From contig CAKZTQ010000018.1 in NCBI GenBank assembly GCA_937921735.1, forward strand, positions 1 to 47,815: a stretch of 47,815 bases of DNA, given 5' to 3'. Of the stretch, positions 11,612 through 46,660 are shown one piece after another. Position 1 is the stretch's first letter, and every line of letters starts with the position of its first letter. Position numbers and translations under genes: made by a program. This DNA is from an uncultured archaeon (GTDB lineage: Archaea; Hadarchaeota; Hadarchaeia; Hadarchaeales; Hadarchaeaceae). The notes below the pieces were generated by a model. The model saw nothing but the letters and a program-made list of their open reading frames with translations. It was not told the origin of the DNA and did not search any database.

Positions 11612-12123
11612 GCGGGATAGAACACAAAAAGGATGTGCCGCAGCACCTGAGGGTCGCGGTGCTCACGATAAGCGACAGCCGTGCGGCGGCGATGCACGAG
11701 GGGAGAGACGAGGACGTCTCCGGGAAGCTCATCGAGCGTAGACTACAAGAGGCGGGCCATTCGTCCATCAGGTTGATCTTGCCAGACGAGACGGAGGAGA
11801 TACGGGCCGCCATCGAGAGGTTTTCCTCCGACCCGGAGACGGATGTCATAATAACCACGGGAGGCACTGGCATAACCAGGCGGGACGTCACCATAGAGAC
11901 GATAGCCCCCCTTCTGGAGAAGGAGCTGCCTGGGTTCGGTGAACTCCTTCGGCGCATCGGCTACGAGAAGGTTGGAGGCCCCGCCATCCTGACGAGGGCC
12001 ACCGCCGGGGTGATAAGGAGGAAGCCGGTGTTCTGCCTGCCTGGCGCACCCAACGCGGTCGAGGTGGCGATGGACCTCATCCTTCCTGAACTCGGGCACA
12101 TCGTCAAACACGCGCGTGAATGA
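11608..12123 (+). CDS. moaB: Molybdenum cofactor biosynthesis protein MoaB/Mog family
   Basis: LRVAVLTISDSRAAAMHEGRDEDVSG, DVIITTGGTGITRRDVTIETI, VFCLPGAPNAVEVAMDLILPELGH. Confidence 0.92.
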   Translation: MSGIEHKKDVPQHLRVAVLTISDSRAAAMHEGRDEDVSGKLIERRLQEAGHSSIRLILPDETEEIRAAIERFSSDPETDVIITTGGTGITRRDVTIETIAPLLEKELPGFGELLRRIGYEKVGGPAILTRATAGVIRRKPVFCLPGAPNAVEVAMDLILPELGHIVKHARE

Positions 12124-14643: not shown

Positions 14644-15370
14644 GGCGGTCGCGGTGGTGGGCTACAGGAAGTCGGGCAAGACCACCATCGTCGAGGGTCT
14701 CGTGAAGGAGCTCGTGAGGCGGGGGTACAAGGTGGGGACGGTAAAACACATCCGCGAGAAGGACTTCAGCATCGACCAACGGGGCAAGGACACCTGGCGA
14801 CACGCGCAGGCGGGTGCCAGCACCGTGATCTGCATCGCCCCCCGCGAGGTCGCCACCATAAGTCGGCGCCGCACGAAGCTGGAGGAGGTCCTGCGCGCGC
14901 TCCGGGGGTTAGATTTCGTGATCATAGAGGGCTTCAGGAGGGCGAGCGGGATACCGAAGGTGGCGGTGGCTCGAAGCGTCGGCGAGGCGAAAGAACTTGC
15001 GGACGAATTCACGGTCGCGTGCGTTGGGCATCGCAAGCCTTGGCTGCCCCTATTTAAGCACGATGAGGCCGGGAAGCTCGCGGACCTCCTCGAGCAAAGG
15101 GTCCCGCCTTTGCTGCCGGGGATCGACTGTAGGCGCTGCGGCTACCAAAGCTGCAAGGAGTTCTCGCTGGCCGTAATCGCCGGGCGCGAGCGCTGGAACG
15201 GATGCCCAGCGCTGCGGGAGCGCGTGGTCCTCACCGTGGACGGCAAACGGGTACATCTAAACCCTTTCATCCAAGAACTCATCTCCGGGACGCTGGATGG
15301 GATGCTGTCCGCCCTGAAGGGGGTCAAGGGCAAGGAGATCGAGCTAAAGGTGAGGAGGCGTGCGCGATAG
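14621..15370 (+). CDS. mobB: Molybdopterin-guanine dinucleotide biosynthesis protein MobB with C-terminal Cys-rich (Fe-S-like) extension
   Basis: VAVVGYRKSGKTTIVEGLVKELVRRGYKVGTVKH, DTWRHAQAGA, DFVIIEGFR; tail GIDCRRCGYQSCKEFSLAVIAGRERWNGCPAL. Confidence 0.9.
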   Translation: MGARTLLRAVAVVGYRKSGKTTIVEGLVKELVRRGYKVGTVKHIREKDFSIDQRGKDTWRHAQAGASTVICIAPREVATISRRRTKLEEVLRALRGLDFVIIEGFRRASGIPKVAVARSVGEAKELADEFTVACVGHRKPWLPLFKHDEAGKLADLLEQRVPPLLPGIDCRRCGYQSCKEFSLAVIAGRERWNGCPALRERVVLTVDGKRVHLNPFIQELISGTLDGMLSALKGVKGKEIELKVRRRAR

Positions 15371-16271
15371 GTTCGGGAGGTCGCTCACGGGCTTGCGGAT
15401 ATCGGTCACCGACGATTGCAACTTGAACTGCTTTTACTGCCACCGGGAGGGATGCCCAGCGGGCTCTAGACGGATGTCGCCGGAGGAGATCGGACGGATC
15501 GCGGGGCTCGCCGCGGAGTTCGGCGTGCGCAAGGTAAAGCTAACCGGAGGCGAGCCATTGATGCGCAAGGACATCACGGACGTAATCAGGTCGATCGCTG
15601 AGACCGAGGTCTCCGAGATATCGATGACGACCAATGGAACGCTGCTGGCGGATGTCGCGGTAGAGCTGGCGGACGCTGGCCTTGACCGCGTGAACATCAG
15701 CCTCGATACCTTGAACAACGAGACCTACCGCAGGATAACTGGCGAGGACATGCTCGAGAACGTGCTTTCCGGCATCGAAGCTGCGATAGCTGCCGACCTC
15801 ACCCCGGTGAAGATAAACATGGTGGTGCTCGCCGGCATAAACGATGGGGAGATAGAGCGCATGATATCCTATGCCTTCCGGCAAGGGGCCATCCTCCAGC
15901 TGATAGAACTCATAGATGTGGGTGGAGGAGGTCCATCGCCCTACCACCACGACTTGGCCGAGGTGGAGCGGGAGCTGAGCCGGCGAGCCCTCGCCGTGGA
16001 GACGCGTGAGCACATGAACGCACGCAAGAAGTTCATCTTGCCCGACGGCGAAGTGGAGGTGGTTAGGCCCATGCACAACTCCGAATTTTGCATGCACTGC
16101 ACGCGCCTACGCTTGACGTCGGGCGGCTATCTCAAACCATGTCTGATGCGCAACGATAATTTGGTGGATGTCCTCACCCCGCTACGCGAGGGAATGATGG
16201 ACGAGGCGAGGGAGGCATTTAGAAGGGCGGTAGCGCTTCGAGAACCCTACTTCAAGCCCATGGGGGGTTAG
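15360..16271 (+). CDS. moaA: GTP 3',8-cyclase (radical SAM)
   Basis: RISVTDDCNLNCFYCHREG, KLTGGEPLMRKDI, NISLDTLNNETYRRITG, C-terminal FCMHCTRLRLTSGGYLKPCLM. Confidence 0.95.
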   Translation: MRDRFGRSLTGLRISVTDDCNLNCFYCHREGCPAGSRRMSPEEIGRIAGLAAEFGVRKVKLTGGEPLMRKDITDVIRSIAETEVSEISMTTNGTLLADVAVELADAGLDRVNISLDTLNNETYRRITGEDMLENVLSGIEAAIAADLTPVKINMVVLAGINDGEIERMISYAFRQGAILQLIELIDVGGGGPSPYHHDLAEVERELSRRALAVETREHMNARKKFILPDGEVEVVRPMHNSEFCMHCTRLRLTSGGYLKPCLMRNDNLVDVLTPLREGMMDEAREAFRRAVALREPYFKPMGG

Positions 16272-30864: not shown

Positions 30865-32134
30865 TCCGGTGGAAAAGATCATCCACGATCCGGTATACGG
30901 AAGCATGCGCCTGAGCGGCATCGTGTTGGATCTCGTCGACGTCATGGAGGTCCAAAGGCTTAGGGGCATCAAACAACTTGGCCTAGCACATCTCGTGTTC
31001 CCGGGCGCAAATCACTCTAGGTTTGAACATGCGCTCGGCGTCGCTCATTTGGTGGAGCGCTTGGGACAAGAGCTGGAGCTCCCCAAGGACGAACTCGACC
31101 TGCTTTTGGCGGCTGCCATGCTCCACGACATTGGACATCCCCCCTACTCCCACACCCTTGAGTACCTGATGAAGGATCACCTGGGCAAGGACCACATGGA
31201 GCTCACCGGAGATATCTTGCGGGGGGAAGTGGACCTCTGTGAGCCGAGCGAGCGCAGAGAGCTCAAGCGGATGAACGTACCGCTTGCCAAAGATATGCTC
31301 TCAAAGCATGAGATAAGCGCCGATGAGGTGGCGCGCCTCCTGCTGGGCAAACATCGCATGCCCTACCTAGGCCAGATCATCCACAGCTACATTGACGTGG
31401 ATCAGATGGATTACTTGATGAGGGATGCCCACTTCACGGGAGTGGCGCTGGGGATGATAGATGTTGACCGCCTCATGCGGACCCTCGTCGTATACAAAAA
31501 TCGCTTAGCGATCGCGAGTAAGGGAATTGAAGCGGTGGAGGGATTGCTCACCGCTCGCGCACTCATGTTCACCTCAGTTTACTTCCACCACACCGTTAGG
31601 ATAGCAGAGCTGATGTTGGCGAATGCGGTAGAGTTTGCAATGGAGCGGGGGGGTACGATAACCGAGGATAACTTCTACTTCCTCACGGACGCCCAACTAA
31701 CGGAGCGCCTTAGCTCGATGCAGGGCTATCCGCGTGAGATCGTGATGCGGTTACGCTATCGGAAGCTTTTCAAGACAGCGTACGTCGAGGAGAGGCGTGA
31801 GCTTACCGCCGCCGAGAAAAAACATCTCCTTAAGAGATATGGCGAATGGCATCTCATTCGTGAGTTACAGGACGAAATCGCCGAGGGGGCGGGGGTCCAG
31901 AGCGGATATGTTATCTTAGACGTTCCAATAGTCGATATCTTGCTATCCGAGCCTCGCCTAGAAAAGGTCGAGGTGCCGGTATTGGTGGATGGTAAACTCG
32001 TCAAGTTATCTAAGCTCTCGCCCATCGCCAACGCCCTGAAGAAAAGGCAAACGCCCCGCTATTTGCTGCGCGTGGTGGCCCCAAAGGAGTTCGTCGGTAA
32101 GGTGAAACGAGTAGCTGCGAGGGTTTTAGGCTAG
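30854..32134 (+). CDS. HD-domain (dGTPase-like) phosphohydrolase
   Basis: IHDPVYGSMRLSGIVLDLVDVMEVQRLRGIKQLGLAHLVFPGANHSRFEHALGVAHL, MLHDIGHPPYSHTLE; GTG start overlapping moaD-like gene end. Confidence 0.9.
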   Translation: MVADPVEKIIHDPVYGSMRLSGIVLDLVDVMEVQRLRGIKQLGLAHLVFPGANHSRFEHALGVAHLVERLGQELELPKDELDLLLAAAMLHDIGHPPYSHTLEYLMKDHLGKDHMELTGDILRGEVDLCEPSERRELKRMNVPLAKDMLSKHEISADEVARLLLGKHRMPYLGQIIHSYIDVDQMDYLMRDAHFTGVALGMIDVDRLMRTLVVYKNRLAIASKGIEAVEGLLTARALMFTSVYFHHTVRIAELMLANAVEFAMERGGTITEDNFYFLTDAQLTERLSSMQGYPREIVMRLRYRKLFKTAYVEERRELTAAEKKHLLKRYGEWHLIRELQDEIAEGAGVQSGYVILDVPIVDILLSEPRLEKVEVPVLVDGKLVKLSKLSPIANALKKRQTPRYLLRVVAPKEFVGKVKRVAARVLG

Positions 32135-32692
32135 CGCTTCGCGACCGAGCTCCGTGGGCCTTAGTCTTTCATCGAGATATCCTAGGACCTGCAACCTCTT
32201 AACGTACTCTTTGGCCATGACTATCGGGATGCCCGCATCTCCCGCCGCGCGCTCGATCGAAAGTTTTGTGTCCAAATCTCGAAGAATTATCCTACCGACC
32301 TCTCCTACAAGGATCTCGTGCGCAAGCTTTCTTTTCACCCTTGGTTCGATTTTAGGATGAGCGGCTAGGATATGATCGAGTAAGCCAGATTTAGCCTCAT
32401 ATTTTTCGGCGAGTATCCTTTGGCAATGGGTAGAGCCGGCCACGGCGGACTTTAGAATTTCAAGTTCTCGCGCCAATGCTTGAACGTTCTCGAGATATCT
32501 AGTCCTCTCTTCTTCTTCTGCCTCGAGTTTACTCCTGAGGGCCTCATTTGCGCCCCGAAGTCGCTCGAGCTCGTTGCGCAGATCATCGACCTGTGCGCGG
32601 AGCTTACGGGTCTTAAACCTTCCCTCGCCAGAGAATAGCATCCACCCGAGTAGGACGAATATTATGAATATCAGAAATGCCTCTGTCCACAT
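32126..32692 (-). CDS. Membrane-anchored coiled-coil protein with C-terminal winged-helix-like segment
   Basis: MWTEAFLIFIIFVLLGWMLF TM, heptad region VDDLRNELERLRGANEALRSKLEAEEEERTRYLENVQALARELEIL, C-term AKEYVKRLQVLGYLDERLRPTELGREALA. Confidence 0.6.
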   Translation of the reverse strand: MWTEAFLIFIIFVLLGWMLFSGEGRFKTRKLRAQVDDLRNELERLRGANEALRSKLEAEEEERTRYLENVQALARELEILKSAVAGSTHCQRILAEKYEAKSGLLDHILAAHPKIEPRVKRKLAHEILVGEVGRIILRDLDTKLSIERAAGDAGIPIVMAKEYVKRLQVLGYLDERLRPTELGREALA

Positions 32693-32786: not shown

Positions 32787-33875
32787 TCAGAACCGCATTG
32801 CCCTCGTGGGGCAAACCGAGACGCAGAGTCCGCAGCCATAACATTTACCTTGGTCGACCCTAGCGATCTTTCCCACCACGCGGACGGCGTTATAGATGCA
32901 ATGTTTCTCGCAGAGCCCACACCCGGTACACTTTGTCGCCAAAACTTCGGGTGGCTTAGCCCACGTGCGTAAGGGTTGCTCAGGCAAGTGCCTCAGGGCT
33001 ATACCCCGAAAGTCCTCGATGGACTCATAGCCCTTGATGCGCATGAACTTGGCGATCTCGTCGGCGATCAACCCGTAGATCTGCGGACCGCGGACGATCG
33101 CGGCCGTACAAACCTGCACGGCGCTTGCACCAGCCATGATGAACTCGATGGCATCGCGGCCATCGCTGATGCCTCCGACGCCGATCACGGGGAGGCGCAC
33201 GGCACGGCAGATGTCGGCGACGCAGCGAAGGGCCAAGGGTTTGATCGCGGGGCCAGAGAGCCACCCATAGCCCTTAGGTCCCCCCATCCACGGCATGGCA
33301 TTCTCTATATCTATCGCCAAGCAGGGACCGAGCGTATTTATCGCCACTAGGCCATCGGCACCCGCCTGCTCAGCGGCCCTAGCGAACTCGGTTATATCTA
33401 ACACGTTTGGGCTCAATTTGACGAACACCGGGATAGTCACAGTTTCCTTCGCGGCCCTGATAGCCTCTACCATTGGCGTCGGGTCGTGTCCCAAGTAGTG
33501 CGTAGAGAGCTCGAGGGCATCGACGCCGGCCTTTTCGACCCTCGGAGCCAACTCCCTGATCTCCTCGGGCTTGTACCCAATGCTCGCGATCAAGGGTAGC
33601 CCGGTCTTCTTGGCCTTTGCATACTCGTACTGCAACCATCGCTCGACCGGCAAGTCCGACCAGAGCTCAGCGTTCAGCAAACCATCCCTGATCTTGGCCA
33701 TGCACGGACGTGGTACTTCTGCCGGCCTTACGCTTACCGTCTTCGCCACAAGCGCGCCAGCACCGTGCTTCGCCGCGGCGACCAAGGCGTCGCCGTCCCT
33801 GACGGTAGGTCCGGCCGCTGGCATGACGGGATTCCGAAGCTTCAGGCCACATATCTCGACCGCTAGACTTACCAC
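32787..33875 (-). CDS. Dihydropyrimidine/dihydroorotate dehydrogenase family protein with C-terminal 2x[4Fe-4S] ferredoxin domain (PreA/YgfK-like)
   Basis: ICGLKLRNPVMPAAGPT, VFVKLSPNVLDITEFARAAEQAGADGLVAINT, PVIGVGGISDGRDAIEFIMAGASAVQV, CTGCGLCEKHC...CYGCGLCVSVCP. Confidence 0.88.
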   Translation of the reverse strand: MVSLAVEICGLKLRNPVMPAAGPTVRDGDALVAAAKHGAGALVAKTVSVRPAEVPRPCMAKIRDGLLNAELWSDLPVERWLQYEYAKAKKTGLPLIASIGYKPEEIRELAPRVEKAGVDALELSTHYLGHDPTPMVEAIRAAKETVTIPVFVKLSPNVLDITEFARAAEQAGADGLVAINTLGPCLAIDIENAMPWMGGPKGYGWLSGPAIKPLALRCVADICRAVRLPVIGVGGISDGRDAIEFIMAGASAVQVCTAAIVRGPQIYGLIADEIAKFMRIKGYESIEDFRGIALRHLPEQPLRTWAKPPEVLATKCTGCGLCEKHCIYNAVRVVGKIARVDQGKCYGCGLCVSVCPTRAMRF

Positions 33876-35255
33876 CTAGCTACCCCCCATCGCCCCGAGC
33901 TTCTGCCAAAGCCTTTCCGCTGACCTCCGCGCGATCCGGATGACTTCTTCCTCATCGAGCGTCAGCAACTTGCGCTCGCGCATCACCACGTTGCCCCCCA
34001 CGATCACCGTCTCGACGTCGTCCCCGTCTATGGTATTGACCAGGTGCCCTATCACGCTCTCCGGCCTAACTGGCGTCGGCGCCGTCGACGGGTCTATGAT
34101 GATGATGTCCGCTAACTTACCGGTCTCGAGGGAGCCGAGCTCGCTCTCGAGCCCGTAGAGCTCGGCCCCACGTATGGTCGCCATCTCCAAAACTTCCGTG
34201 GGCGAGATTACTCTAGGGTCACGGAGCATGGCCTTGTGGAGCAGAAAGGCCGCGCGGATATTCTCGAACCCATCGAATATGTAACCATCGTTGCCCAAGC
34301 CCACCGGGATGCCCATCGCCAACATTTTCACCACCGGTGCCACCCCAACCGCGTTCAACATGTTGCTCATCGGATTATGCGCCACCTTTGCGCCAGCGCG
34401 TTTGATCAATGCCAACTCATCGTCGTTCACGTGCACGCAGTGAGCTAGCACCACGTCGGGCCCAAGTAGTCCGGCATCGCTCAAGCGCTCGATCGTGCGC
34501 TTGCCGAATCGCTCGTAGTTGTGATACACGTCCACGAGCCCCTCAGACGTATGGATAGTGATGGGTGCTTTGTAACGGCTCGCGAGCTCCCTGACGTAGT
34601 GGAGGAGTTCATCGGAAACTGTAAACGAAGCGTGTATGCTAAACATCCCTCGAACGCGGGCTCCTTTCTTCACCTTCTTGATAAAGCGCTCGTTCTCCCG
34701 CACTCCGCGCGCGCCCTCGGCATGCGTACGCCTCTCGGTAGCTTCGAAGGCGATTATCCCCCGCATGCCCGATTGCTCCACCGCAGCCGCGATGCGATCG
34801 AGCACGCCAGCTATCGCATTTGGGCCGGAGAAGGTATCCGCGAAGAGGGTTGTGCCCGTCTTTATGAATTCCATGCAGGAAACCAAGGCGCTTGCATACG
34901 CGTCCTCGCGCGTCATGGCCTCGTCCATCGGCCACCAGATTCTAGTGAGGATTTGAGAGAAATCCGTCGGCGGTTCGATCTTTAGCGGCGCCCCCCTCAA
35001 AAGCATGCCGTAGAGATGAGTATGGGAGCATATAAGGCCCGGCATGACGATTTTATGTTTGGCATCGATCGTCTCGGCCGGTTTTTCTCCCGGCTTAATG
35101 CCGCGCCCAATTTCTACGATGCGGCCATCCTCGATGGAAATGGAACCATCGGAGATGATTCGGCGCTCCTTATCCATCGTGACTATCAAACCATTTTTTA
35201 TGAACAGGTCAACCAACTTCCCACCCCCTCGTAAGGACCAAATGCGGCGATGCAT
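33876..35255 (-). CDS. SsnA-like metal-dependent amidohydrolase (true start probably nearer the VDLFIKNG codons)
   Basis: HKIVMPGLICSHTHLYGMLLRGAPLKIEPPTDFSQILTRIWWPMDEAM, VLAHCVHV, LGNDGYIFDGFENIRAAF, APTPVRPESVIGHLVN. Confidence 0.85.
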   Translation of the reverse strand: MHRRIWSLRGGGKLVDLFIKNGLIVTMDKERRIISDGSISIEDGRIVEIGRGIKPGEKPAETIDAKHKIVMPGLICSHTHLYGMLLRGAPLKIEPPTDFSQILTRIWWPMDEAMTREDAYASALVSCMEFIKTGTTLFADTFSGPNAIAGVLDRIAAAVEQSGMRGIIAFEATERRTHAEGARGVRENERFIKKVKKGARVRGMFSIHASFTVSDELLHYVRELASRYKAPITIHTSEGLVDVYHNYERFGKRTIERLSDAGLLGPDVVLAHCVHVNDDELALIKRAGAKVAHNPMSNMLNAVGVAPVVKMLAMGIPVGLGNDGYIFDGFENIRAAFLLHKAMLRDPRVISPTEVLEMATIRGAELYGLESELGSLETGKLADIIIIDPSTAPTPVRPESVIGHLVNTIDGDDVETVIVGGNVVMRERKLLTLDEEEVIRIARRSAERLWQKLGAMGGS

Positions 35256-35338
35256 TTAAAAGTTTGGCAAGCGATATCTTCGCAAGCATCTTGACATGTT
35301 TTATAAACCATACCACCGATACGGGCGTGAGGGGAAAT

Positions 35339-35551
35339 ATGCCGGAATTCCCGTTGGCTGTTATGGATAGGCTCATCCGCAAGGTAGGAAAGGTTCGCGT
35401 CTCGCGAGGTGCTGCTTTGGAGCTAAGCGCCGTCTTGGAAGCATATGCCACCGATGTAGCTAAAGAAGCGATTAAGTTAGCTGAACATCGAGGGGCCAAG
35501 ACCGTAACTGACATCGACATCAGGGCGGCCGCATCCAGGATAAGAACATAA
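35339..35551 (+). CDS. Archaeal histone
   Basis: MPEFPLAVMDRLIRKVGKVRVSRGAALELSAVLEAYATDVAKEAIKLAEHRGAKTVTDIDIRAAASRIRT, 71 aa histone fold. Confidence 0.95.
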   Translation: MPEFPLAVMDRLIRKVGKVRVSRGAALELSAVLEAYATDVAKEAIKLAEHRGAKTVTDIDIRAAASRIRT

Positions 35552-35576
35552 GATATCCTGTGGCCGGGGGTGCCTT

Positions 35577-36911
35577 TTGGCAGACCTCATAATACGGAAC
35601 GCTAGGCTCGTCCTGCCGGAGGGTATCATCCAAGGTGAACTCGCGATCGATGATGGTCTGATCGCCGAGATCTCCAGAGTTAGGTTGCCCAAACGTGCGG
35701 CCGAAATAAACGCTAACGGCAAGCTGGTGATGCCGGGGGTTATAGACGTACATGCCCACATCTACGATCCTCGCTATTTAAAGCGCGAGGACTTTCGCAA
35801 CGGCACCGCCGCTGCGGCCGCTGGAGGGGTGACGAGCGTCATCGTGATGCCGCTAGATACCCCTATGGTGATGGTGGAGGAGCTGCAGAAAGTTATCGAG
35901 GTCGGACAAAAGCATAGCCTGATAGATTTTTCTTTACACGCAGGAAATTTCACCGCCGACGTCCCCGAGCACCTGTGTGCTGCGGCTGGCATTGGGATTA
36001 AGTCGTTCAAGATGTTTACCTGCGCACCGTACCGCGTTAACGAAACAACGTTGGAGAAGTTGATGTCGACCATCAAAAATATAGGTGGCATCGCATTCGT
36101 ACACGCCGAGGACGACAAGATCATCAGCAAAAACACCAAACGCCTGCTTAAAGAGGGGCGGAGAGACCCCCTAGCCCATGTCGAATCTCGTCCGAACGAG
36201 GCGGAGGAAAAAGCTATAAAAAAAATGATCGAGCTCGTCAAGAAAACTGAATGCAACCTGCATTTAGCCCATGTAACAGCCCGTCAGGGTGTTGAACTCG
36301 TGAATAAGGCTAAGTCCAAGCATGTGCGGCTGACGGCCGAAACCTGTCCACACTATCTGATCTTCACCAAGGAGGATATGGAAAAACTTGGACCTTACCT
36401 AAAGGTGAATCCAGCCCTAAAGAGTAGCGAGGACAGGGCCGCGCTATGGGATGGTCTAAGTAATGGAATTATCGACATCGTCGCATCCGATCATGCGCCC
36501 GGTACGCGGGCGGAGAAGGAGGTTGGCTGGAAAGATATTTGGGCGGCTCAAACAGGCGTCCCGGGCATAGAAACCATGCTGCCGCTGATGCTCGGCGAGG
36601 GGTTCGCGCGCGGCAGATTAACGCTCGAAAGGCTTGTCGATGCGCTTTGCACGCGGCCCGCCAAGATCTTTGGCCTTTACCCTAGGAAGGGCATCATCCG
36701 CGAGGGCTCGGATGCCGATTTGGTGATCGTCGATCTAAAGAAGGAGGTCACCATAAGGGCCGAGAAGTTGCACTACAAAGTCGGTTGGACGCCATACGAG
36801 GGGATGAAGATCAAAGGAGCGCCGGTGATGACCATATCTAGAGGCATCGTGATAGCTGAGGATGGCGAGGTACAGGCAAAACCCGGCCGGGGGCTCTTTT
36901 TAAGCCGTTAG
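35577..36911 (+). CDS. Cyclic amidohydrolase (HyuA/dihydropyrimidinase/allantoinase family)
   Basis: GKLVMPGVIDVHAHIYDP, GIKSFKMF (carbamylated Lys), FVHAEDD, LHLAHVTA, DIVASDHAPGTRAEKE; TTG start. Confidence 0.88.
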   Translation: MADLIIRNARLVLPEGIIQGELAIDDGLIAEISRVRLPKRAAEINANGKLVMPGVIDVHAHIYDPRYLKREDFRNGTAAAAAGGVTSVIVMPLDTPMVMVEELQKVIEVGQKHSLIDFSLHAGNFTADVPEHLCAAAGIGIKSFKMFTCAPYRVNETTLEKLMSTIKNIGGIAFVHAEDDKIISKNTKRLLKEGRRDPLAHVESRPNEAEEKAIKKMIELVKKTECNLHLAHVTARQGVELVNKAKSKHVRLTAETCPHYLIFTKEDMEKLGPYLKVNPALKSSEDRAALWDGLSNGIIDIVASDHAPGTRAEKEVGWKDIWAAQTGVPGIETMLPLMLGEGFARGRLTLERLVDALCTRPAKIFGLYPRKGIIREGSDADLVIVDLKKEVTIRAEKLHYKVGWTPYEGMKIKGAPVMTISRGIVIAEDGEVQAKPGRGLFLSR

Positions 36912-36958
36912 GAAATACGTTGCGATCATTTATCCGGATGCTTAAAAGGTGCCTTGGG

Positions 36959-38383
36959 TCAAGCGAAGAATGTTCGTCTTCGGACATCGCGCAAGCCGTT
37001 GAGGATAACTCGCCTGTCGCCGCTGGTCATGTTTCGCTCTGCTATAAGTTTTCCATACCAGCGAAGCGCTCGTAGAGCTTTGGCACCCCTTTCTGGCAGA
37101 TCGTAAACTGGAATACCGATATCTCGAAGAACATCGCGAACCGCTACGTACCAATCTCCGCCGATAGCTACGTTCACGACGGGCTTTTCCTCCACGCTTT
37201 TTGCGACGTCCGCAAGGAGCCTCATTTCCTCGGGCTCCAGCGGGCAGGAGTCGAACGCGGTGACCACCATTAAACCGTTGACCTGTGGATCCTCCAATAC
37301 CCGCCCCAAGACGAACCCGTAACAATTCGCCCCAGCGTTGGGGGTCAGGTTTATCGGGTTATCGGGGCAGACATCTGGATATCGTCTTTTTATGCTCTTG
37401 ATCACTCCTTCGGACAACCTCGCCAACTCGAAACCCTCGCGGCGGACGGCCTCAGCCGCCAGCATCGCTGGGCCCTCCGCACTGCCAACGATCGCGATGC
37501 TGTCGCTTGCCAAGGGGGGTTGTTTAGCAAGCGCTTCTGCCATGTCGAAGAATTCTTGTATATTCCCGGCCAAAACCGCCCCAGCCTGCTTCAGCGCTGC
37601 GCTGAAGATCCTTCCTCCCCAAATTGAAGGCCTCGCAAGCGTCGACCTCGTCGCGTCGCACCCGAGCGCCACCACTGGCTTTTGCTTTGAGGCCTCACGT
37701 AGGGCCTGTAAAAAACGCCTTCCATCGACGCTCGTCCTCTCCGCGTATACGCAAATGACGCGGGAGCCCTTCTCTTCCGCCAGGTAGCGCACTGTTTCGA
37801 CCGCACCAACGTCTACGCTGCCCTCGGTTACGGCGAACTTGCCCACGCCGATACCGTGCAAATGGGCCCAATCCACCATCGCGGGGCCAACGCCTTGGCC
37901 ACTGACGATAAATGAAGTGGCGCCCCGTCTCGGTATCGCCCGAAGCTTGGGCATCAAGCAAAGTCCATTGGAGGTGTTGACCACACCCACGATACCTGGT
38001 CCGAGCACCCTGATACCTCTTTTAACTGCTGTGCGCGAGAGCTGTTCAGCCTGGTCCTCGGTAAACCCGCTGGAGATCAAGGCCATTGCCTTTACGGCGC
38101 TTCTGTTCAGGAGCTTCCGCACGCAGTTGAGCGCTTGCTTCGGCTGCAGAACTAGGACAGCTAGATCGAGTTTCCTCGGCGCGGCTCTGAGATCTCTCGA
38201 AGTACCGTCTAGCTGGCCGCTGAGGTCCACCACATGCATTTTACCCTTGTAAAATCTTCGCATGGCTTGGACTATGGAGCGAAAAAACGTCGCGTGAACG
38301 TCGGCTTTTCGGACCTCCGAGCAACCTATTAAAATGACGGACTTCGGCTCGAAAATCGCTCTTATGCCATTTTCGGCCATCAA
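36959..38383 (-). CDS. ADP-forming acyl-CoA synthetase alpha-subunit-like protein with degenerate phospho-His motif
   Basis: CoA-binding domain IRAIFEPKSVILIGCSEVRK; ligase-CoA domain TSFIVSGQGVGPAMVDWAHLHGIGVGKF...DATRSTLARPSIWGGRIFSAALKQAGAV where SHTGxLAG is expected. Confidence 0.8.
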   Translation of the reverse strand: MMAENGIRAIFEPKSVILIGCSEVRKADVHATFFRSIVQAMRRFYKGKMHVVDLSGQLDGTSRDLRAAPRKLDLAVLVLQPKQALNCVRKLLNRSAVKAMALISSGFTEDQAEQLSRTAVKRGIRVLGPGIVGVVNTSNGLCLMPKLRAIPRRGATSFIVSGQGVGPAMVDWAHLHGIGVGKFAVTEGSVDVGAVETVRYLAEEKGSRVICVYAERTSVDGRRFLQALREASKQKPVVALGCDATRSTLARPSIWGGRIFSAALKQAGAVLAGNIQEFFDMAEALAKQPPLASDSIAIVGSAEGPAMLAAEAVRREGFELARLSEGVIKSIKRRYPDVCPDNPINLTPNAGANCYGFVLGRVLEDPQVNGLMVVTAFDSCPLEPEEMRLLADVAKSVEEKPVVNVAIGGDWYVAVRDVLRDIGIPVYDLPERGAKALRALRWYGKLIAERNMTSGDRRVILNGLRDVRRRTFFA

Positions 38384-39102
38384 CTGCCCTCCTTGAGTAT
38401 CATCCTAGCGTCGATGGCGATGGCTCCCTTTCCGCGATCGAACGCGAATACTGGATTTAAATCCAGCTCGGCTATTTCTGAAAATTCGCAAGCGAGATCC
38501 CCAACCTTCTGCAGCATGTCGGCGATGGCGTCCAAATCAACCTGCGGCTCGCCCCGCAAGCCGGCCAACACGGGATAGCCCTTGATTTCTCGTATCATCT
38601 CCTTCGCGTCCTCCGCGGTAAGGGGGGCAAGCCTGAAGCTTACGTCCTTCAAAACCTCTACCCATATGCCGCCGAGCCCGAACATCACCGTCGCGCCGAA
38701 GGATGGGTCCTGCATGGCGCCTACTATTACCTCCTTTCCTTGCGGAAGGTACTCCTGCACTGTGACGCCGGCGATGTTCGCGTTAGGCCTGTAGGCTCGA
38801 GCGTTGGCAAGTATCTCATCGAACGCCTGTCTGACCTCAAGCTCGGAGCTCAGTCCCACCCTCACGCCCCCCGCGTCGCTCTTGTGGACGATGTCGGGCG
38901 ATGCTATCTTCATGACCACTGGATATCGGAGCTCCCTCGCGATCCTCACCGCCTCGGAGGCATCTCTCGCCAGCTCGGAGCGAGCGACCGGTATTCCCCA
39001 AGCAGAGAGCACCTGCTTTGCCTCGTGCTCCAATAGCACTCGCCGACCCTGCCTTCTGGTCGACGCCAAAATTTCCGCGACCTTCTTCCGATCGGTCGCC
39101 AT
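38380..39102 (-). CDS. ADP-forming acyl-CoA synthetase beta-subunit-like (ATP-grasp) protein
   Basis: LLEHEAKQVLSAWGIPVARSELA, YPVVMKIASPDIVHKSDAGGVRVGL, ELDLNPVFAF; overlaps alpha gene. Confidence 0.9.
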   Translation of the reverse strand: MATDRKKVAEILASTRRQGRRVLLEHEAKQVLSAWGIPVARSELARDASEAVRIARELRYPVVMKIASPDIVHKSDAGGVRVGLSSELEVRQAFDEILANARAYRPNANIAGVTVQEYLPQGKEVIVGAMQDPSFGATVMFGLGGIWVEVLKDVSFRLAPLTAEDAKEMIREIKGYPVLAGLRGEPQVDLDAIADMLQKVGDLACEFSEIAELDLNPVFAFDRGKGAIAIDARMILKEGS

Positions 39103-39376
39103 ATAATCACGGGTTATTTACATTGGTCATTTTTATTATTTAAATTTTCCAAGCCCTTGCTACAAGTTTTGGGGATTTTTCTTTCTCCTTTTTAGATTTT
39201 CTGCATTTAAAAAGACGATTAATAAGTTTTAGGAAAGATAAAGATCTGTTTTTGGTTTAACACACCTATTCTTCCCCAACTAATCGGCCTACGTCTTTTG
39301 CCGAATTTTAAAGATGAAGCCCCCCTCAAAACTTAAAAATCGTGCGGGGCTATGGTTAATAGCCCGTGGTGATACG

Positions 39377-40333
39377 GTGGCCAAGACAAAGACTAGAGTC
39401 GTAGTGGCGCTGGGTGGGAATGCGATCCTCCAGAGGGGGGAAAGGGGAACATACGAAGAACAGCTCGCGAACGTGAGAAAGACGGCGGAGCAAATAGGTA
39501 AGATGATCTTGAGCGGAAAGTATCAAGTCGTCATAACCCACGGTAACGGTCCGCAGGTAGGTGCGATACTCCTCCAGAACGACGCCGGACAGAAGTATGG
39601 TATACCGGCGATGCCAATGGACGTCTGCGGCGCCGAGAGCCAAGGGCTGATAGGGTATATGATACAGCAGTGCCTCCGCGAGGTTTTCGTCAAGGCCGGA
39701 AGACCGGATATACCCGTTGCCACGGTGATAACCCAAGTTATCGTCGACAAAAACGACCCCGCCTTCCAAAACCCCACCAAACCGGTCGGCCCGTTCTACA
39801 CCGAAGAGGAGGCGAAAAGGTTGGCCAAGGAGAAGGGGTGGGTCGTGGTAGACGATGCCGGCCGCGGCTGGAGGCGCGTGGTGCCATCGCCCGACCCAAA
39901 GGACATCGCCGAGAAGGAGGCTATAAGATGTCTCCTCGACGCGCACGTCGTCCCCATAGCCTCGGGGGGTGGTGGAATACCCGTGATCGAGGAGGACGGG
40001 AAATTGAAGGGTGTGGAGGCGGTGATAGACAAGGACTTGGCGGGCGAGAGGCTGGCCGAAGCGGTGGACGCGGACGTGCTGCTGATATTGACCGACGTAG
40101 ACGGGGTGGCGATAAACTACAGGAAGCCCAATGAGCGGTGGCTGAGGAGGATGACGGTGCAGGAGGCGAAGCGATACTTGGAGGAGGGCCAGTTCGCGGC
40201 GGGCAGCATGGAGCCGAAGGTGAGGGCCGCCGTGAGGTTCATCGAGTGGGGAGGGAAACGGGCGATCATCGCATCGCTGGACCGGGCCCTAGAGGCCCTC
40301 GAGGGAGAGGCGGGCACGGAAATAGTAAGATGA
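39377..40333 (+). CDS. Carbamate kinase
   Basis: [102 protein letters not shown]. Confidence 0.95.
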
Positions 40334-40401
40334 TCCATCAAAGAAACCTTTTTTCGGAATCGATTTTTAGATGCGAACCTTAAATTTCCTTTTGGGATGA
40401 G

Positions 40402-41478
40402 ATGGCCAAAATCCCTCGAGAACTTGAAGGACTACTCGAACTTCCCACCGTCAGACCCGCTCTGCTTTGGGAAAAGGTCCAAGATAGCGAGGTAAAGTGT
40501 AGTCTTTGCGAGAGGCGATGCCAGATAAAGGAGGGATCGACCGGTTTTTGTGGGACGAGGGTCAACATCGGCGGTCAACTTTACACGATGGTCTACGGCG
40601 ATATATCCTCCCTCTCCGCCAACCCAGCGGAGAAAAAGCCCTTTTACCATTTTTATCCGGGCAAGCTTTTCCTGACGGCGGGCACGTATGGATGCACGTT
40701 TCGATGCCCATGGTGTCAAAACGCGTCCATAAGTCAAGTTTCTCCAGATCCACGCGAGGCCAACTACATAAGCCCGGAGCACTTCGTCAAGATCTCCTTA
40801 GAAGAGGGGTGCGTCGGGACCAGCCTGAGCTTCAACGAGCCCACCTTGCTCTTCGAATACGCGCTTGACCTGTTCCCCCTAGCGCACGAGAAGGGCCTAG
40901 TGAATACCTTCGTCTCGAACGGTTACATGACGCTCGAAGCGCTCCGGATGTTGCGCGACGCTGGCTTGGACGCCATCAACATCGATGTCAAAGGAGATGC
41001 CCAAGCGGTTCGGAAATATTGCGCGGCGAGGGTCGAGCCCGTTTGGCGAAACGTGCGGGAGGCCAAGCGCCTTGGGCTGCATGTGGAGGTGGTCAACCTC
41101 GTGATACCTGGGGTCAACGATCGCGAGGAGCAATTTAGGGAACTGGCGAGGCGCCACCTCCAAGAGGCCGGGGATGAAACGCCCCTGCACTTCACGGCCT
41201 ATTATCCCGCTTACAGGTTCGATGCCCCGCCTACCCCCGTCGCGACCCTCGAGCGAGCCCACGACGTGGCGGTGGCGGAGGGCTTAAAGTTCGTCTACGT
41301 GGGCAATGTGCCCGGACACCGCTACGAGAACACCTATTGCCCGAACTGTGGCAGACTGCTCATCGGTCGCTACGGGCTCGAGCTCATAAAGGTGGACCTC
41401 GAGGACCATCGATGCCCGAGCTGCGGGCGGGAGATCTCCATCGTGACGAAAAGTGGGACGAGGAGGCGGGCGAGGTGA
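40402..41478 (+). CDS. Radical SAM enzyme of the AmmeMemoRadiSam / PFL-activase-like family
   Basis: CSLCERRCQIKEGSTGFCGTRVN...FLTAGTYGCTFRCPWCQN (CxxxCxxC), FNEPTLLFEYALDL, VTTL C-terminal zinc-ribbon CPNCG...CPSCGREI. Confidence 0.88.
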   Translation: MAKIPRELEGLLELPTVRPALLWEKVQDSEVKCSLCERRCQIKEGSTGFCGTRVNIGGQLYTMVYGDISSLSANPAEKKPFYHFYPGKLFLTAGTYGCTFRCPWCQNASISQVSPDPREANYISPEHFVKISLEEGCVGTSLSFNEPTLLFEYALDLFPLAHEKGLVNTFVSNGYMTLEALRMLRDAGLDAINIDVKGDAQAVRKYCAARVEPVWRNVREAKRLGLHVEVVNLVIPGVNDREEQFRELARRHLQEAGDETPLHFTAYYPAYRFDAPPTPVATLERAHDVAVAEGLKFVYVGNVPGHRYENTYCPNCGRLLIGRYGLELIKVDLEDHRCPSCGREISIVTKSGTRRRAR

Positions 41479-42254
41479 CGATCGTCGTAGTCGTCAGGGG
41501 AGACCGGCCCGAGACGGTGGTGCCGCTCGCCTTGAAGGAACTGGGCATCGAGGTCAAAGGGAGAAAGGTGGTGATAAAGCCAAACCTCATCACCAACCGC
41601 CCCTACCCGGTGATCACTCCGCCCGAAACCGTGGGGGCCCTCCTCGATTATTTCAGGGAGGGCAACGAGCTCATCGTGGCCGAGGGCTCTGGCTTCGGCG
41701 ATACTAGGGAGATATTCAGGGATCAGGGTTACGAGGCGCTCGCCGAGCGTTATGGGGCGAGGCTCGTCGACCTCAATCGGGATAAATTTGAGTTACTCGA
41801 GCTACCGGAAGTCAGGGTGCTGAGGAGGTTCGAGCTGCCATCGACCCTCAAGGGTGCTTACCTCATCTCGGCCGCGGTCCTAAAGCGGCACTCGATAACG
41901 AAGGTGACGCTCTCGGTCAAGAACATGCTCGGCGCCACCATCGGGAGGGACAAGGGAAGGTTCCACAGGCTGGGCATAGACGAGAGCATCGTCGACATCT
42001 GCCTCTACCGAAAACCGGACCTCGCGGTCATCGACGGCAGGCTGGGCTTGAGCTCCGAGCTCGGAGGGGAAGCTAGGAAATTTGGGGTGATGATCTTCTC
42101 CGAGGACCCGGTCGCCGCGGATGCTGTAGGGTCGAAAATTCTTGGGGTCGAGCCCTCAAGCGTGCGACACCTGAAGTTGGCGCAGGAAGCGGGACTTGGG
42201 GTATGCGATCTCAAGAGGATCGAGGTGCGCGAGCTAAGCGCGGGCAGCACTTAA
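41475..42254 (+). CDS. DUF362 domain-containing protein
   Basis: KVVIKPNLITNRPYPVITPPETVGALLDYF...VAEGSGFGDTREIFRDQGYEALAERYG...SVKNMLGATIGRDKGRFH; GTG start overlapping upstream stop. Confidence 0.85.
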   Translation: MTIVVVVRGDRPETVVPLALKELGIEVKGRKVVIKPNLITNRPYPVITPPETVGALLDYFREGNELIVAEGSGFGDTREIFRDQGYEALAERYGARLVDLNRDKFELLELPEVRVLRRFELPSTLKGAYLISAAVLKRHSITKVTLSVKNMLGATIGRDKGRFHRLGIDESIVDICLYRKPDLAVIDGRLGLSSELGGEARKFGVMIFSEDPVAADAVGSKILGVEPSSVRHLKLAQEAGLGVCDLKRIEVRELSAGST

Positions 42255-43012
42255 CGAACGGGCTTGACCTCGCTGGAAATCGCGTCGTAGCCCTCTAGGA
42301 CCCTTTCAAAACTTATCCTTTTGCCCCCTACGATCTTGAGCTCAACATCTAGCGAGCCCCGCTCCACCCTTATGATGTTGTAGGAGTTGGCGAAGAACCC
42401 CCTCAGCCTCCTGCAGGAAACGCTGCCGGCGTGCACTATCGGCAAGCCATCGACGCTCAGCCTCCAAGGCCTGTGCTTGTGGCCGCAGAGTACCAAGTTG
42501 GCCTTGCCGGCTATAAGCGTGCGCAGGGCGTCTCCAGCGTCGACGACTATGTTGGGCCTAGTGCCGGTGTCGGGGATGGGTACCAAGTGATGGTGGAGGG
42601 CGACTATCTTGAACTTGTCCTCGTGCTTCCTCAAGACCTCATCGAACCATACTAGCTGGCGGTAGCCAACCTCACCCGTGTCCCTATCCGGCCTCGCGGT
42701 TCGAAGGTGGGCGATGAGTACCTCGTCGAGCACCAACATCTCAGGGCGAGGGAAGAAGTGATCCCAGAGCAAGAAGCCGGTGTGCTCGTAGTCGTGGTTG
42801 CCGCTGCCCACTAAAACCCTGCTACACCTGAGCTTTCCGATGTACCTCGCCGCTAGCTTGTACTCATCGAAGAGACCGGAGTTTGTGACATCGCCGGTGA
42901 TTATGACCACGTCCGGCTTTAGCGCGTTTATCTCCTTGATGGCCGTAGCTAGCATCTTCGGGGAGAACGTCTCCGCGCCGCAGTGCAGGTCAGATAAGTG
43001 AACGAGAAGCAT
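42251..43012 (-). CDS. Calcineurin-like metallophosphoesterase
   Basis: LLVHLSDLHCGAETF, VVIITGDVTNSG, VLVGSGNHDYEH, LVLCGHKHRPWRL. Confidence 0.9.
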   Translation of the reverse strand: MLLVHLSDLHCGAETFSPKMLATAIKEINALKPDVVIITGDVTNSGLFDEYKLAARYIGKLRCSRVLVGSGNHDYEHTGFLLWDHFFPRPEMLVLDEVLIAHLRTARPDRDTGEVGYRQLVWFDEVLRKHEDKFKIVALHHHLVPIPDTGTRPNIVVDAGDALRTLIAGKANLVLCGHKHRPWRLSVDGLPIVHAGSVSCRRLRGFFANSYNIIRVERGSLDVELKIVGGKRISFERVLEGYDAISSEVKPVR

Positions 43013-43019
43013 GTTCCCC

Positions 43020-44042
43020 CTATAGCTCGACTTCCTTGCACATGGTGAGGGCGAGCACCGCCATCTTGGCGAAGAAGTTGTCGTCGGCCTGCTCGTAGAT
43101 GACCGAGTTGGGCCCATCCATCACCTCGTCCGTCGCCTCCTCGCCCCTCATCACTGGCAGCACGTGGGTGACGATCGCCGGCCTGCCCATGAGGTCGTCG
43201 ACGTGGTGCTGCTCCAGCCTCCAATCTCGATATCTGTTGTAGATGGCGACCTCCCTGTCGACGCCAAACGCCGTTGCACCCACCCTCAGAAATTCCGCCG
43301 TCGCCCAATTCCTCGGAAAGACCACGTTTGCGCCTCGGAGCCCCTCCTCGAAGTCGTTGCTCACCTCGAAGCTCCCGCCGCTCTCCTCGGCGTTCCTTTT
43401 GGCGGCCTCGATTATCTTGGGGTCTATCTCGAAGCCCGGCGGGTGAACCAACGTCACATCCATGCCGAAGCGGGTAGCGATGAGCACCTCCTCTTGGATG
43501 CTGCATCTCCCGCGTGGCTTGCTTGAGTACGCCCAGGTCACGGCGTACTTCTTTCCCCTCACATCGCCGAGCTTGGCTTGGATCGTCATCATGTCCCCTA
43601 TCGCTTGCGTTGGGTGATAGGTGCAACAGGCCATGTTGATCACCGGCACCTTTGCAACCCTCGCGAATTCCTCGACCACCCTTCTCCCCGCGCCATAGAC
43701 GAAGTCTATAGCCTTGTCCAATATCCTTACTCCTATCCCGTCCGCGTAAGAGTCGTACATCTTCGCTGCGTCCTTCACCGCCTCCTCCATCCTCATCGTC
43801 GAGACATCGATGAAGGCCGGGTGTCCGCCTAGCATGGCGGTCGCGGCCTCGAAGGCGCCGCGCGTGCGCGTCGAGGGCGCGTAGAACACCATGAAGAAGT
43901 TCTTCCGATCGAGGAGCCTGGGTGGACGGCCCCCTCCCCTGACGATCGCCCTCAGCTTCCTGGCCAGGTCTATGGTTGCTTGGATCTCGTCGATGCTCCA
44001 ATCTTGAGTAGTTATCAGGTCGCGACCGTAGAGCTCAGCCAT
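43020..44042 (-). CDS. Knotted carbamoyltransferase, YgeW-like (OTC/ATC superfamily)
   Basis: FYAPSTRTRGAFEAATAMLGG, CTYHPTQAIGDMMTI, KKYAVTWAYSSKPRGRCSIQEEVLIATRFGMDVTLVHPPGFEIDPKIIEAAKRNAEESGGSF, HVLPVMRGEEATDEVMDGPNSV. Confidence 0.85.
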   Translation of the reverse strand: MAELYGRDLITTQDWSIDEIQATIDLARKLRAIVRGGGRPPRLLDRKNFFMVFYAPSTRTRGAFEAATAMLGGHPAFIDVSTMRMEEAVKDAAKMYDSYADGIGVRILDKAIDFVYGAGRRVVEEFARVAKVPVINMACCTYHPTQAIGDMMTIQAKLGDVRGKKYAVTWAYSSKPRGRCSIQEEVLIATRFGMDVTLVHPPGFEIDPKIIEAAKRNAEESGGSFEVSNDFEEGLRGANVVFPRNWATAEFLRVGATAFGVDREVAIYNRYRDWRLEQHHVDDLMGRPAIVTHVLPVMRGEEATDEVMDGPNSVIYEQADDNFFAKMAVLALTMCKEVEL

Positions 44043-44249: not shown

Positions 44250-46199
44250 CTAAGGACGTTTCTTAAATGCGACCCTTCCGTACTTCGCTAGGTCCTCAGC
44301 GACATCCACCAGCCCCAGCCCCTCCAACGTCTCTCTATACTGTAGACCCGTCTCTATGTCCCAGCCGCGTTCGGCATAATACTCGTCCAGCATGGGTTTT
44401 AGATCCACCACCATCCCCTTCGCCGGCCCATCGGGCATCGGCTCCTTGAGGAAGCGCTCCGGCAAAGTGTCGTCCTTGCGGTCGAGGCCCAGCCTGGCGT
44501 TGAAGGCTCGCTTCAAGTTAACGATCCGCTCGGCCGCCGCCCTGACTTCCTCTACCCTCGAGAACTCCCGGATACCGGTGACGGCCGGCAAGATCCTCGC
44601 GTAGTCGTCGAAGTAAAAGGCGGGAGGCCACATCGTACCATACTTACAGGTGATGAGGGAGTCGACGACAGCGTAGAGGTCCTCGACGTCCTTGATCAAC
44701 ATGCCCTTGTACTTCGTCGAGAGCCTGTCACCTATATCCTTAGCCTTCTCCTCACCATATCTCTTGGCTATCGTCTCCCTGTAATCTAGCTCGTCGAGCG
44801 ACGAAAGCGCCCTGAGGTGCGCCCCGCCTATGACCGAGATCGCATGGGTTAGGCCTACCGATTGATGTGCCCTGCCGTCTTGTCCCGAGACCTCGAGCCC
44901 CTTCACGTGGATCGCCCAGCGCTCCGAGCCCTTGCCAATGCGCCGCGCTGCCTCCCGAACCCCCTCCGCCAAGACATCGCCGATCCCCTCGCGCGAGGCT
45001 ACCATCTCGACTAGCCTGACCATGGCATCGCCGTCGCCCCATCGCAGGGGCATGCCTAACTCTTGCTCCGTCAGGACACCCCGCTCGAAGCATTCCATCG
45101 CGAAGCTCACCGTGCCCCCGCAGCTTATCGTGTCCATGCCGTGCAAGTTGCAGAGTAGGTTGGCCCTCATTATCGCGGGAAAGTCGCTGACCAAGCAATT
45201 GGAGCCCAAGGCGACGATGGTCTCGTACTCAGGCCCCTCGCTGAGGGTGCCGGCGTACGGGCCGGAGCGCACGTGGCTCACCTTCTTGCACTGGATGCGG
45301 CAGTTCATGCAGGAGCGGCGGTGGACGATGAACTCCCGCTCGAACCTATCGGGCCCTATGTCATCGGCATGCTCGAAGACCCCCGTGGAGTGTCCCTTCG
45401 TCGGCAGCCTACCTATCTCGTTCTCCCACGCGACCAGCCCCGGCGTGCCGAAGCGGTAAAGAGCGTCGTGGGAGGCCTTCCCCCACTCGCCTCGCGTGTA
45501 GCGTTCGTGGGCCTCCTCCGCCAGCTCCCACGTGCGGTCGAAGTCGGCAACCTCGATGTCCCCGCTCCCCCGCACGGCCACCGCCTTAAGGCGCTTGCTG
45601 CCCATTACCGCTCCCACGCCCGTCCTGCCGGCGGCGCGCGCGCGATCGTTTATGATGCAGGCGAACTTCACGAGGCGCTCGCCGGCCTTGCCTATGCACG
45701 CGACCCTAACGCTCGGATCGCCGAACTCCTCCTCGATCATGTCCGTGGTCTCGGCGGTGGTCCTCCCCCAGAGCCCCTCCGCACTTCTGAGCTCAGCCCT
45801 GCCTTCGTCTATTGCCAAGTAGACCGGCTTTTCAGACCTCCCCTGGATCACCACGAGGTCGTAGCCAGCATACTTCAGCTCTGGGCCGAAGTAGCCGCCG
45901 GAGTGCGACTCACCCCAGATGCCGGTCAGCGGGGACCTCGTCACCACGCAGTATCTCCCGGACGGTGGGTAAACCGTGCCGGTGATGGGCCCTGTAGCGA
46001 AGATCAACAGGTTCTCGGGCGATAGCGGCTCGACCTCCGGCGTCACCTCGTCGTAGAGGATGCGCGCGGCCATCCCGCTGCCGCCGATGTAGTACCTCGC
46101 CCACTCCTCGCGGAGGGGGAGTTCGACGATCTTGCCGCGGGTGAGGTCGACGCGCAAGTACTTGCCGGTGTAGCCCTTGTAGGCGAAGACCACCTCCAT
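44250..46199 (-). CDS. Aldehyde ferredoxin oxidoreductase family (tungsten/molybdopterin) enzyme
   Basis: GKYLRVDLTRGKIVELPL, ARYYIGGSGMAARILYDE, ESHSGGYFGPELKYAGYDLVVIQG, RRSCMNCRIQCKK, SEGPEYETIVALGSNC. Confidence 0.93.
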   Translation of the reverse strand: MEVVFAYKGYTGKYLRVDLTRGKIVELPLREEWARYYIGGSGMAARILYDEVTPEVEPLSPENLLIFATGPITGTVYPPSGRYCVVTRSPLTGIWGESHSGGYFGPELKYAGYDLVVIQGRSEKPVYLAIDEGRAELRSAEGLWGRTTAETTDMIEEEFGDPSVRVACIGKAGERLVKFACIINDRARAAGRTGVGAVMGSKRLKAVAVRGSGDIEVADFDRTWELAEEAHERYTRGEWGKASHDALYRFGTPGLVAWENEIGRLPTKGHSTGVFEHADDIGPDRFEREFIVHRRSCMNCRIQCKKVSHVRSGPYAGTLSEGPEYETIVALGSNCLVSDFPAIMRANLLCNLHGMDTISCGGTVSFAMECFERGVLTEQELGMPLRWGDGDAMVRLVEMVASREGIGDVLAEGVREAARRIGKGSERWAIHVKGLEVSGQDGRAHQSVGLTHAISVIGGAHLRALSSLDELDYRETIAKRYGEEKAKDIGDRLSTKYKGMLIKDVEDLYAVVDSLITCKYGTMWPPAFYFDDYARILPAVTGIREFSRVEEVRAAAERIVNLKRAFNARLGLDRKDDTLPERFLKEPMPDGPAKGMVVDLKPMLDEYYAERGWDIETGLQYRETLEGLGLVDVAEDLAKYGRVAFKKRP

Positions 46200-46660
46200 C
46201 ACCTCAAGAGGGACCTCGGGCGCACAGCTTGGGCGATCGCCAGTCGCTTCTCGGCCGCCACTTGTCCTGGCTCGATCAGCCTGAGCGCCTCGGGCATGCA
46301 CAGCCTCACGCAGGCCGGGTCGCCGCCACAAAGGTCGCACTTGGCCGCCTTGCCCTCGATGATGGAGATCGCTCCGAAGGGGCAGGCCTCAACGCAGAGG
46401 GAGCAACCTATGCAGCGCGCCACGTCGACCTCGACCACCCCGGCTTTCGTCCGCCGGATGGCGCCGCTTGGACAGGCCCTCATACAGGGCGGGTCAGCAC
46501 ACTGCCGACAAGTGAGCGCGACGTCGATGGCCGGCTCCCGCCTTACCACGCGGATGCGGGATTTTTTTGGATTGAAAACCTTCTCGTGAACCCCCGAGCA
46601 GACCAGCTCGCATGTCCTGCAGCCCGTGCACTTTTCAAGGTCACAGAACACGTAGGGCAC
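46199..46660 (-). CDS. 4Fe-4S ferredoxin-type electron-transfer subunit, AOR partner
   Basis: CTGCRTCELVCSG, CRQCADPPCMRACPSGAI, CIGCSLCVEACPFGAI, KCDLCGGDPACVRLC. Confidence 0.93.
   Translation of the reverse strand: MPYVFCDLEKCTGCRTCELVCSGVHEKVFNPKKSRIRVVRREPAIDVALTCRQCADPPCMRACPSGAIRRTKAGVVEVDVARCIGCSLCVEACPFGAISIIEGKAAKCDLCGGDPACVRLCMPEALRLIEPGQVAAEKRLAIAQAVRPRSLLR

Follow-up and report, generated by a model that had tools for sequence, protein, structure and literature searches.

Does an archaeon of the Hadarchaeota carry a counterpart of the purine/urate catabolic locus known from bacteria? The question is raised by a contig of 47,815 nucleotides from an uncultured member of this phylum (CAKZTQ010000018.1 of assembly GCA_937921735.1), which was analyzed over its whole length and is called the window below. 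A first-pass annotation had proposed such a counterpart from five genes within about 11 kb: a PreA/YgfK-like dehydrogenase, an SsnA-like amidohydrolase, a HyuA-like cyclic amidohydrolase, a carbamate kinase, and a YgeW-type carbamoyltransferase (CT). All five are intact open reading frames (ORFs) at the coordinates given there and of the broad families named. They do not form one operon, since both strands are used and a histone gene, a pair resembling ADP-forming acyl-CoA synthetase (ACD), an AmmeMemo radical-SAM gene, a DUF362 gene, and a phosphoesterase gene are interleaved among them. The source genome, G000, is a metagenome-assembled genome (MAG) that is 83% complete; the comparison set comprised 27 genomes of the class. 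What stood up in this comparison is a core of three genes, which is probably an archaeal form of the UacX-SsnA-HyuA stage in the reductive breakdown of purines:

32787..33875, minus strand: UacX-type flavin/Fe-S reductase (PreA1)
33876..35255, minus strand: SsnA-family amidohydrolase (SsnA1)
35577..36911, plus strand: hydantoinase-type cyclic amidohydrolase (Hyd)

These three genes are a true unit, of which the CT and the carbamate kinase are not fixed members. PreA1 and SsnA1 are adjacent in 21 of the 27 genomes, more than chance would give, and where this pair occurs Hyd usually lies ~60–380 bp beyond SsnA1. The ACD-like pair (AcdB-AcdA, window 36959-39102), which the first-pass annotation did not include, adjoins Hyd in most genomes. 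Linkage across relatives was thus confirmed for the trio and not for the carbamate kinase or, within Hadarchaeota, the CT. Seven relatives carry, after PreA1, a second module made up of SsnA2, PreA2, and a PreT-like gene, which the contig end shortens in some of them. The SsnA2 copy tested is a genuine SsnA by score (580 bits against a cut-off of 444), and the PreA2 copy tested passes the PreA cut-off (465 versus 335). In two genomes with a readable flank (G014 and G018), the module sits exactly between PreA1 and the counterpart of window 32126-32692; at that spot, nothing of it is found in G000 or in the outgroup G022.

PreA1 combines a dihydroorotate dehydrogenase (DHODH)-type barrel (PF01180) and two Fer4 (4Fe-4S) motifs in 362 amino acids and lacks a FAD/NAD(P)H domain. 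Over all 362 residues it is 46% identical to the reductase of the Cetobacterium somerae urate cluster (plasmid NZ_CP092520.1), which also holds genes for YgeX, YgeY, a D-aminoacylase (UacY), SsnA, GuaD, an XdhD-like protein, and HydA; identity to Escherichia coli PreA is ~30%. In both PreA1 and the Cetobacterium protein the catalytic loop is short and lacks the SCP cysteine found in PyrD and PreA. Phylogenetic analysis placed PreA1 in a 17-row clade (96/97) with Cetobacterium UacX, the one UacX sequence included, apart from PreA and PyrD. All eight Fe-S cysteines are conserved across 20 aligned orthologues. Judged by these sequence features, PreA1 is a UacX-type (C. difficile/Cetobacterium, X1) reductase, neither YgfK nor PreA, and the earlier PreA/YgfK-like label has to be replaced. 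Orthology to YgfK was rejected, given a score of only 19 bits for YgfK with the orthologue profile and a YgfK branch of length 7 in the tree. The shared LST loop is insufficient on its own as proof of YgfK identity, and UacX fits PreA1 better. The X1 dehydrogenase family, recorded as early as 2013 (PMC4016543), matches the UacX arrangement. Because PreA1 has Fe-S motifs without a FAD domain, analogy suggests ferredoxin as its electron donor, as proposed for UacX in the reductive urate pathway (PMC12507026) and shown for PydAc, which has the same ferredoxin-dependent, FAD-less layout (PMC7332683).

The best family match of SsnA1 is the SsnA model, at 413 bits; the next unrelated family reaches 330. 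In the tree it falls inside the SsnA clade (99/97), apart from the GuaD, DadD, and MtaD types, and groups with Haloarcula SsnA (97/88), with bacterial SsnA and SsnA2 as the sister group. Its metal ligands (H, H, H, E, H, D) are all present in the window copy. The first-pass assignment of this gene is retained, with a score that stays under the family cut-off. Pairing with the reductase is in keeping with the report that YgfK/UacX requires SsnA for product and that their genes co-localize (PMC12507026). Hyd belongs to the hydantoinase/allantoinase/dihydroorotase family, and its best match among solved structures is the L-hydantoinase 1gkr. It is separate from the PyrC clade in the tree and is 31% identical to E. 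coli HyuA and 37% to the Haloarcula hydantoinase. Metal ligands and the position of the carboxylated lysine are intact in the window copy.

We liken this core to the UacX-SsnA-HyuA stage because PreA1 is UacX-like and SsnA1 lies in the SsnA clade. Family membership, the UacX-type loop, the Fe-S and metal ligands, and class-wide synteny are read from sequence; from these we infer a substrate, an electron donor, and a direction. Ferredoxin-linked PreA1 would reduce, and so dearomatize, an oxopurine, for which yanthine (2,8-dioxopurine) is our best single guess, offered tentatively. SsnA1 would at once hydrolyze the unstable dihydro product, pulling the reaction forward, and Hyd would then open the remaining five-membered ring to give a ureido acid. 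The CT might finally phosphorolyze a ureido group to carbamoyl phosphate, from which carbamate kinase would make ATP, a step that we regard as possible rather than probable.

The genes invoked in this last step, together with other features outside the trio, are as follows:

35264..35551, plus strand: archaeal histone gene between SsnA1 and Hyd (Pfam CBFD_NFYB_HMF)
36959..38383, minus strand: ACD alpha-like protein without the phosphohistidine loop (AcdA)
38380..39102, minus strand: ACD beta-like ATP-grasp protein (AcdB; ATP-grasp_5, 291 bits)
39377..40333, plus strand: carbamate kinase (arcC, 462 bits; cut-off 358)
43020..44042, minus strand: knotted-type carbamoyltransferase (CT)
44250..46223, minus strand: gene of the tungsten aldehyde ferredoxin oxidoreductase (AOR) family adjoining the CT (PF02730 match)
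46199..46660, minus strand: 4Fe-4S electron-transfer protein paired with the AOR (PadI/AegA/HydN-type ferredoxin families)

The CT is an aspartate/ornithine carbamoyltransferase with STRTR and HPTQ motifs and a TWAY knot segment. It scores under every curated cut-off (acetylornithine type 218, ornithine type 187, YgeW 140 bits) and fails the YgeW models by far (140 against 453 and 137 against 500 bits). The VTWAYS...GMDV stretch, taken earlier as a marker of YgeW, is present and characterizes the entire knotted group, YgeW and acetylornithine types alike. In the tree the CT joins this group, split from ArgF/PyrB at 99/98; a closer grouping with YgeW inside it is weak (88/85) and lies on a long branch. 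On this sequence evidence the CT is of the knotted (YgeW/acetylornithine) type and is not ArgF, PyrB, or YgeW, so that its separation from canonical ArgF was predicted correctly and its YgeW identity was not. Its named relatives are mostly Candidatus Hadarchaeum and Hadesarchaea MAGs. The only other carbamoyltransferase in G000 is an ArgF-type gene at C16.

In relatives, the CT recurs near AOR genes, by adjacency statistics that ignore shared ancestry and contig ends, and the AOR gene of the window is a possible pathway partner of the CT. The CT adjoins an adenine deaminase gene in G004, with a BMP-type transporter beyond, and another knotted CT adjoins hydantoinase and AOR genes in G016 and G017. 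At L050:7422-9472 (G017:C38), an MtmB-family monomethylamine methyltransferase and a B12-binding protein are encoded directly beside a knotted CT, hydantoinase, and AOR. On a contig labelled Bathyarchaeota (L035:499-5312), which could be misbinned, two CTs, a cysteine-synthase-like pyridoxal-phosphate (PLP) enzyme, and SsnA1 stand in a row. The PLP enzyme that adjoins the second CT scores as ThrC-like against family models and is a candidate substitute for YgeX. Carbamate kinase occurs in 12 of the 27 genomes and directly adjoins argF in 8 of the 11 other carriers; it co-occurs with a window-type CT in 10 of the 12, a count not corrected for ancestry. In some hyperthermophilic archaea, carbamate kinase can supply carbamoyl phosphate for biosynthesis.

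Several observations weigh against the purine reading. SsnA1 is under its curated cut-offs (413/444 for NCBIfam SsnA, 398/455 for TIGR03314). The CT is not next to the trio in the other Hadarchaeota genomes, and carbamate kinase is near the trio in the window genome only, being unlinked in relatives; the proposed counterpart of the purine/urate locus thus holds for the reductase-SsnA-hydantoinase core and not for these two genes. In the 83%-complete G000 no XDH-family protein was found, and YgeX and YgeY, already reported missing from the window, had no match genome-wide either (UacY was not searched for). Across the 27 genomes, a single weak match was all that was found for YgeX. The trio is retained also in relatives without XDH, and some lineages keep a catalytically dead Hyd or SsnA1, a retention that an ordinary catabolic enzyme would not need. 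A complete reductive urate pathway was accordingly not detected in G000, and the fermentation of purines first proposed for this archaeon is conjectural. Some relatives look better equipped for the full pathway, because XDH, the PLP paralogue, a second CT, and carbamate kinase tend to co-occur among genomes of the class (ancestry not corrected). XDH-family proteins, not resolved to XdhD, are encoded in eleven of them; neither the ThrC-like PLP paralogue nor a second knotted CT was found in G000.

Could the same enzymes act on pyrimidines instead? In reductive, Pyd-like catabolism, PreA1 would reduce uracil or thymine with ferredoxin, Hyd would be a dihydropyrimidinase, and SsnA1 would serve as a deaminase or ring hydrolase of related bases. 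The superfamilies are the same, PydAc shares the layout of PreA1 (PMC7332683), and the family of Hyd includes dihydropyrimidinase. However, the catalytic loop and tree position of PreA1 are those of UacX rather than PreA, true PreA and PreT-like genes are separate in relatives, and SsnA marks the urate pathway rather than the Pyd pathway (PMC12507026), which leaves this alternative unlikely. De novo pyrimidine biosynthesis, with Hyd as dihydroorotase and PreA1 as dihydroorotate dehydrogenase, has in its favor that PyrC and PyrD are among the best generic family-model matches. The trio is nevertheless very unlikely to be biosynthetic, because G000 has only its two carbamoyltransferases, no PyrC/PyrD pair of the relatives' kind, and no convincing PyrF. 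A convincing PyrF is also missing from most genomes that have the trio and lack pyrC/pyrD, and a distinct linked pyrB-pyrC-pyrD set is carried by other Hadarchaeota. The HxHxR arginine of PyrC is a tyrosine in Hyd, and the catalytic cysteine of PyrD is gone in PreA1. We rejected this explanation on the loss of PyrF, PyrC, and PyrD, from genomes that retain the trio, together with these active-site residues. Separately, twelve incomplete genomes (G000, G007, G009-G015, and G018-G020) show no convincing PyrF and no linked pyrC/pyrD, and these Hadarchaeota appear to be without de novo pyrimidine synthesis.

A different possibility is that the block mainly encodes a complex of proteins, several of them with no need of catalysis, whose role is structural, regulatory, or otherwise different. 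Alignment with solved ACDs and a canonical ACD from its own genome showed that precisely the phosphohistidine loop is missing from AcdA, in the window as in every block orthologue examined. Several metal ligands have been lost from both SsnA1 and Hyd in G001 (L080:6490-9536) and from Hyd in G002 (L096:861-2207), with the ORFs open and syntenic; one ligand each is lost from Hyd in G003 (L077:3881-5227) and SsnA1 in G022 (L079:3985-5361). The reductase, for its part, keeps all of its cysteines throughout. Yet SsnA1 and Hyd retain their catalytic residues in the window and most genomes, the decay is seen mostly in a single genus plus a few outgroup genomes, and synonymous changes on the dead copies are mostly saturated in the dN/dS analysis, so that selection on them is poorly measurable. 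We consider this explanation quite improbable. The remaining alternative is compatible with the purine reading and covers only two genes: carbamate kinase and the CT may serve the synthesis of arginine or other amino acids and be near the block by chance. The carbamate kinase genes that flank argF in eight relatives lie within arg genes, and the best NCBIfam score of the CT, though under cut-off, is for N-acetylornithine carbamoyltransferase. Against this stand the separate ArgF-type gene of G000, the placement of knotted CTs beside hydantoinase and AOR, near adenine deaminase and a BMP transporter, or in a row with SsnA1, and the uncorrected co-occurrence of the two genes. We see the chances here as even.

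If the trio does carry out the UacX-SsnA-HyuA stage, which enzyme would precede it? AOR genes accompany UacX-like and SsnA-like genes elsewhere. In G000:C21, the genes for AOR, an amidohydrolase, a UacX-like protein, and an SsnA-like protein lie on the same strand with gaps of 2, 0, and 10 bp; SsnA-like, UacX-like, FeS, and AOR genes form a tight same-strand run in G017:C22; and in G004:C3 an AOR gene is close to a UacX-like/SsnA-like pair. The FeS-AOR pair recurs among genomes. Given these runs, the AOR genes beside knotted CTs, and the lack of a detected XDH in G000, a tungsten AOR-family enzyme with an Fe-S subunit might stand in here for the molybdenum enzyme XdhD when purines are broken down reductively, an idea that we rate as rather improbable. 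The wider run in G000:C21 (L084:9034-18073) encodes, on the same strand with gaps of -14 to 61 bp, an ECF transporter, a Mer-like F420 protein, and the SsnA-like, UacX-like, amidohydrolase, and AOR proteins. Its F420-type LLM protein was not counted as a yanthine reductase, as it scores over the methylene-H4MPT reductase cut-off. The G017:C22 island (L089:427-20000) holds genes for AllG (oxamate carbamoyltransferase subunit), amidohydrolases, a molybdopterin oxidoreductase, an agmatinase-family protein, and a hydantoinase besides the AOR, FeS, UacX-like, and SsnA-like genes.

Among the neighbors of the trio, the ACD-like pair resembles ACD in that alpha-like and beta-like subunits are encoded together; it differs in the missing alpha loop and in a beta histidine that is not strictly kept among relatives, being present in the window copy of AcdB and replaced in G001, G003, and G005. 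AcdA-like orthologues in L064-L096 lie next to the hydantoinase gene and evolve faster than the partner AcdB. A relationship of AcdA to FdrA/AllF (20% identity, E = 0.004) was not established. The histone gene, which G004, G017, and G022 also carry at this position, is probably functionally unrelated to SsnA1 and Hyd. Along the window, G+C content is ~0.59-0.66 in 1-16000 and ~0.53-0.60 in 16001-47815; the drop near 16 kb coincides with the end of the histidine and molybdenum-cofactor genes, and a tandem pair of MoeA-like genes lies at 12116-14643.

The reductive urate route was solved in 2025 and described for bacteria (PMC12507026). If our reading is true, the UacX-SsnA-hydantoinase block extends this route to a subsurface, nearly uncultured archaeal class and indicates ferredoxin-driven nucleobase breakdown in subsurface archaea; what the block does is a separate question, posed by the ACD-like pair without its histidine and by the catalytically dead copies of SsnA and hydantoinase. 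An archaeal ssnA-hydantoinase pair is not new, as SsnA and hydantoinase on Haloarcula marismortui plasmid pNG700 were listed by Haft and Self (2008; PMC2276186). There, too, SsnA adjoins the hydantoinase (window SsnA1 is 38% and Hyd 37% identical to them), but the neighbors differ, comprising a BMP ABC transporter, an LLM oxidoreductase, an NCS2 permease, and a ThrC-like enzyme, and the stretch read holds no UacX-type reductase. PydAc/PreA shares the DHODH-type barrel, the ferredoxin-like Fe-S part, and, in PydAc, the absence of a FAD domain with PreA1, whereas loop and tree position set PreA1 apart from PreA. Compared with the E. coli locus ygeW-ygeX-ygeY-hyuA-yqeA ... ygfK-ssnA-ygfM-xdhD, the window brings reductase, SsnA, hydantoinase, knotted CT, and carbamate kinase together within 11 kb, although its reductase lacks the FAD/NAD(P)H domain of YgfK, its CT is far under the YgeW cut-off, and its genes use both strands and are separated by unrelated ones. 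Unlike the uac cluster of C. difficile type, which encodes a D-aminoacylase, the window has a knotted CT that is unlinked in relatives, adds the ACD-like pair and the histone gene, and comes from a genome without detected XdhD, YgeX, or YgeY. With that UacX-type cluster of the reductive urate pathway (Li et al., 2025; PMC12507026), as seen on the Cetobacterium plasmid, it shares the FAD-less Fe-S reductase of UacX type, SsnA, and the hydantoinase.

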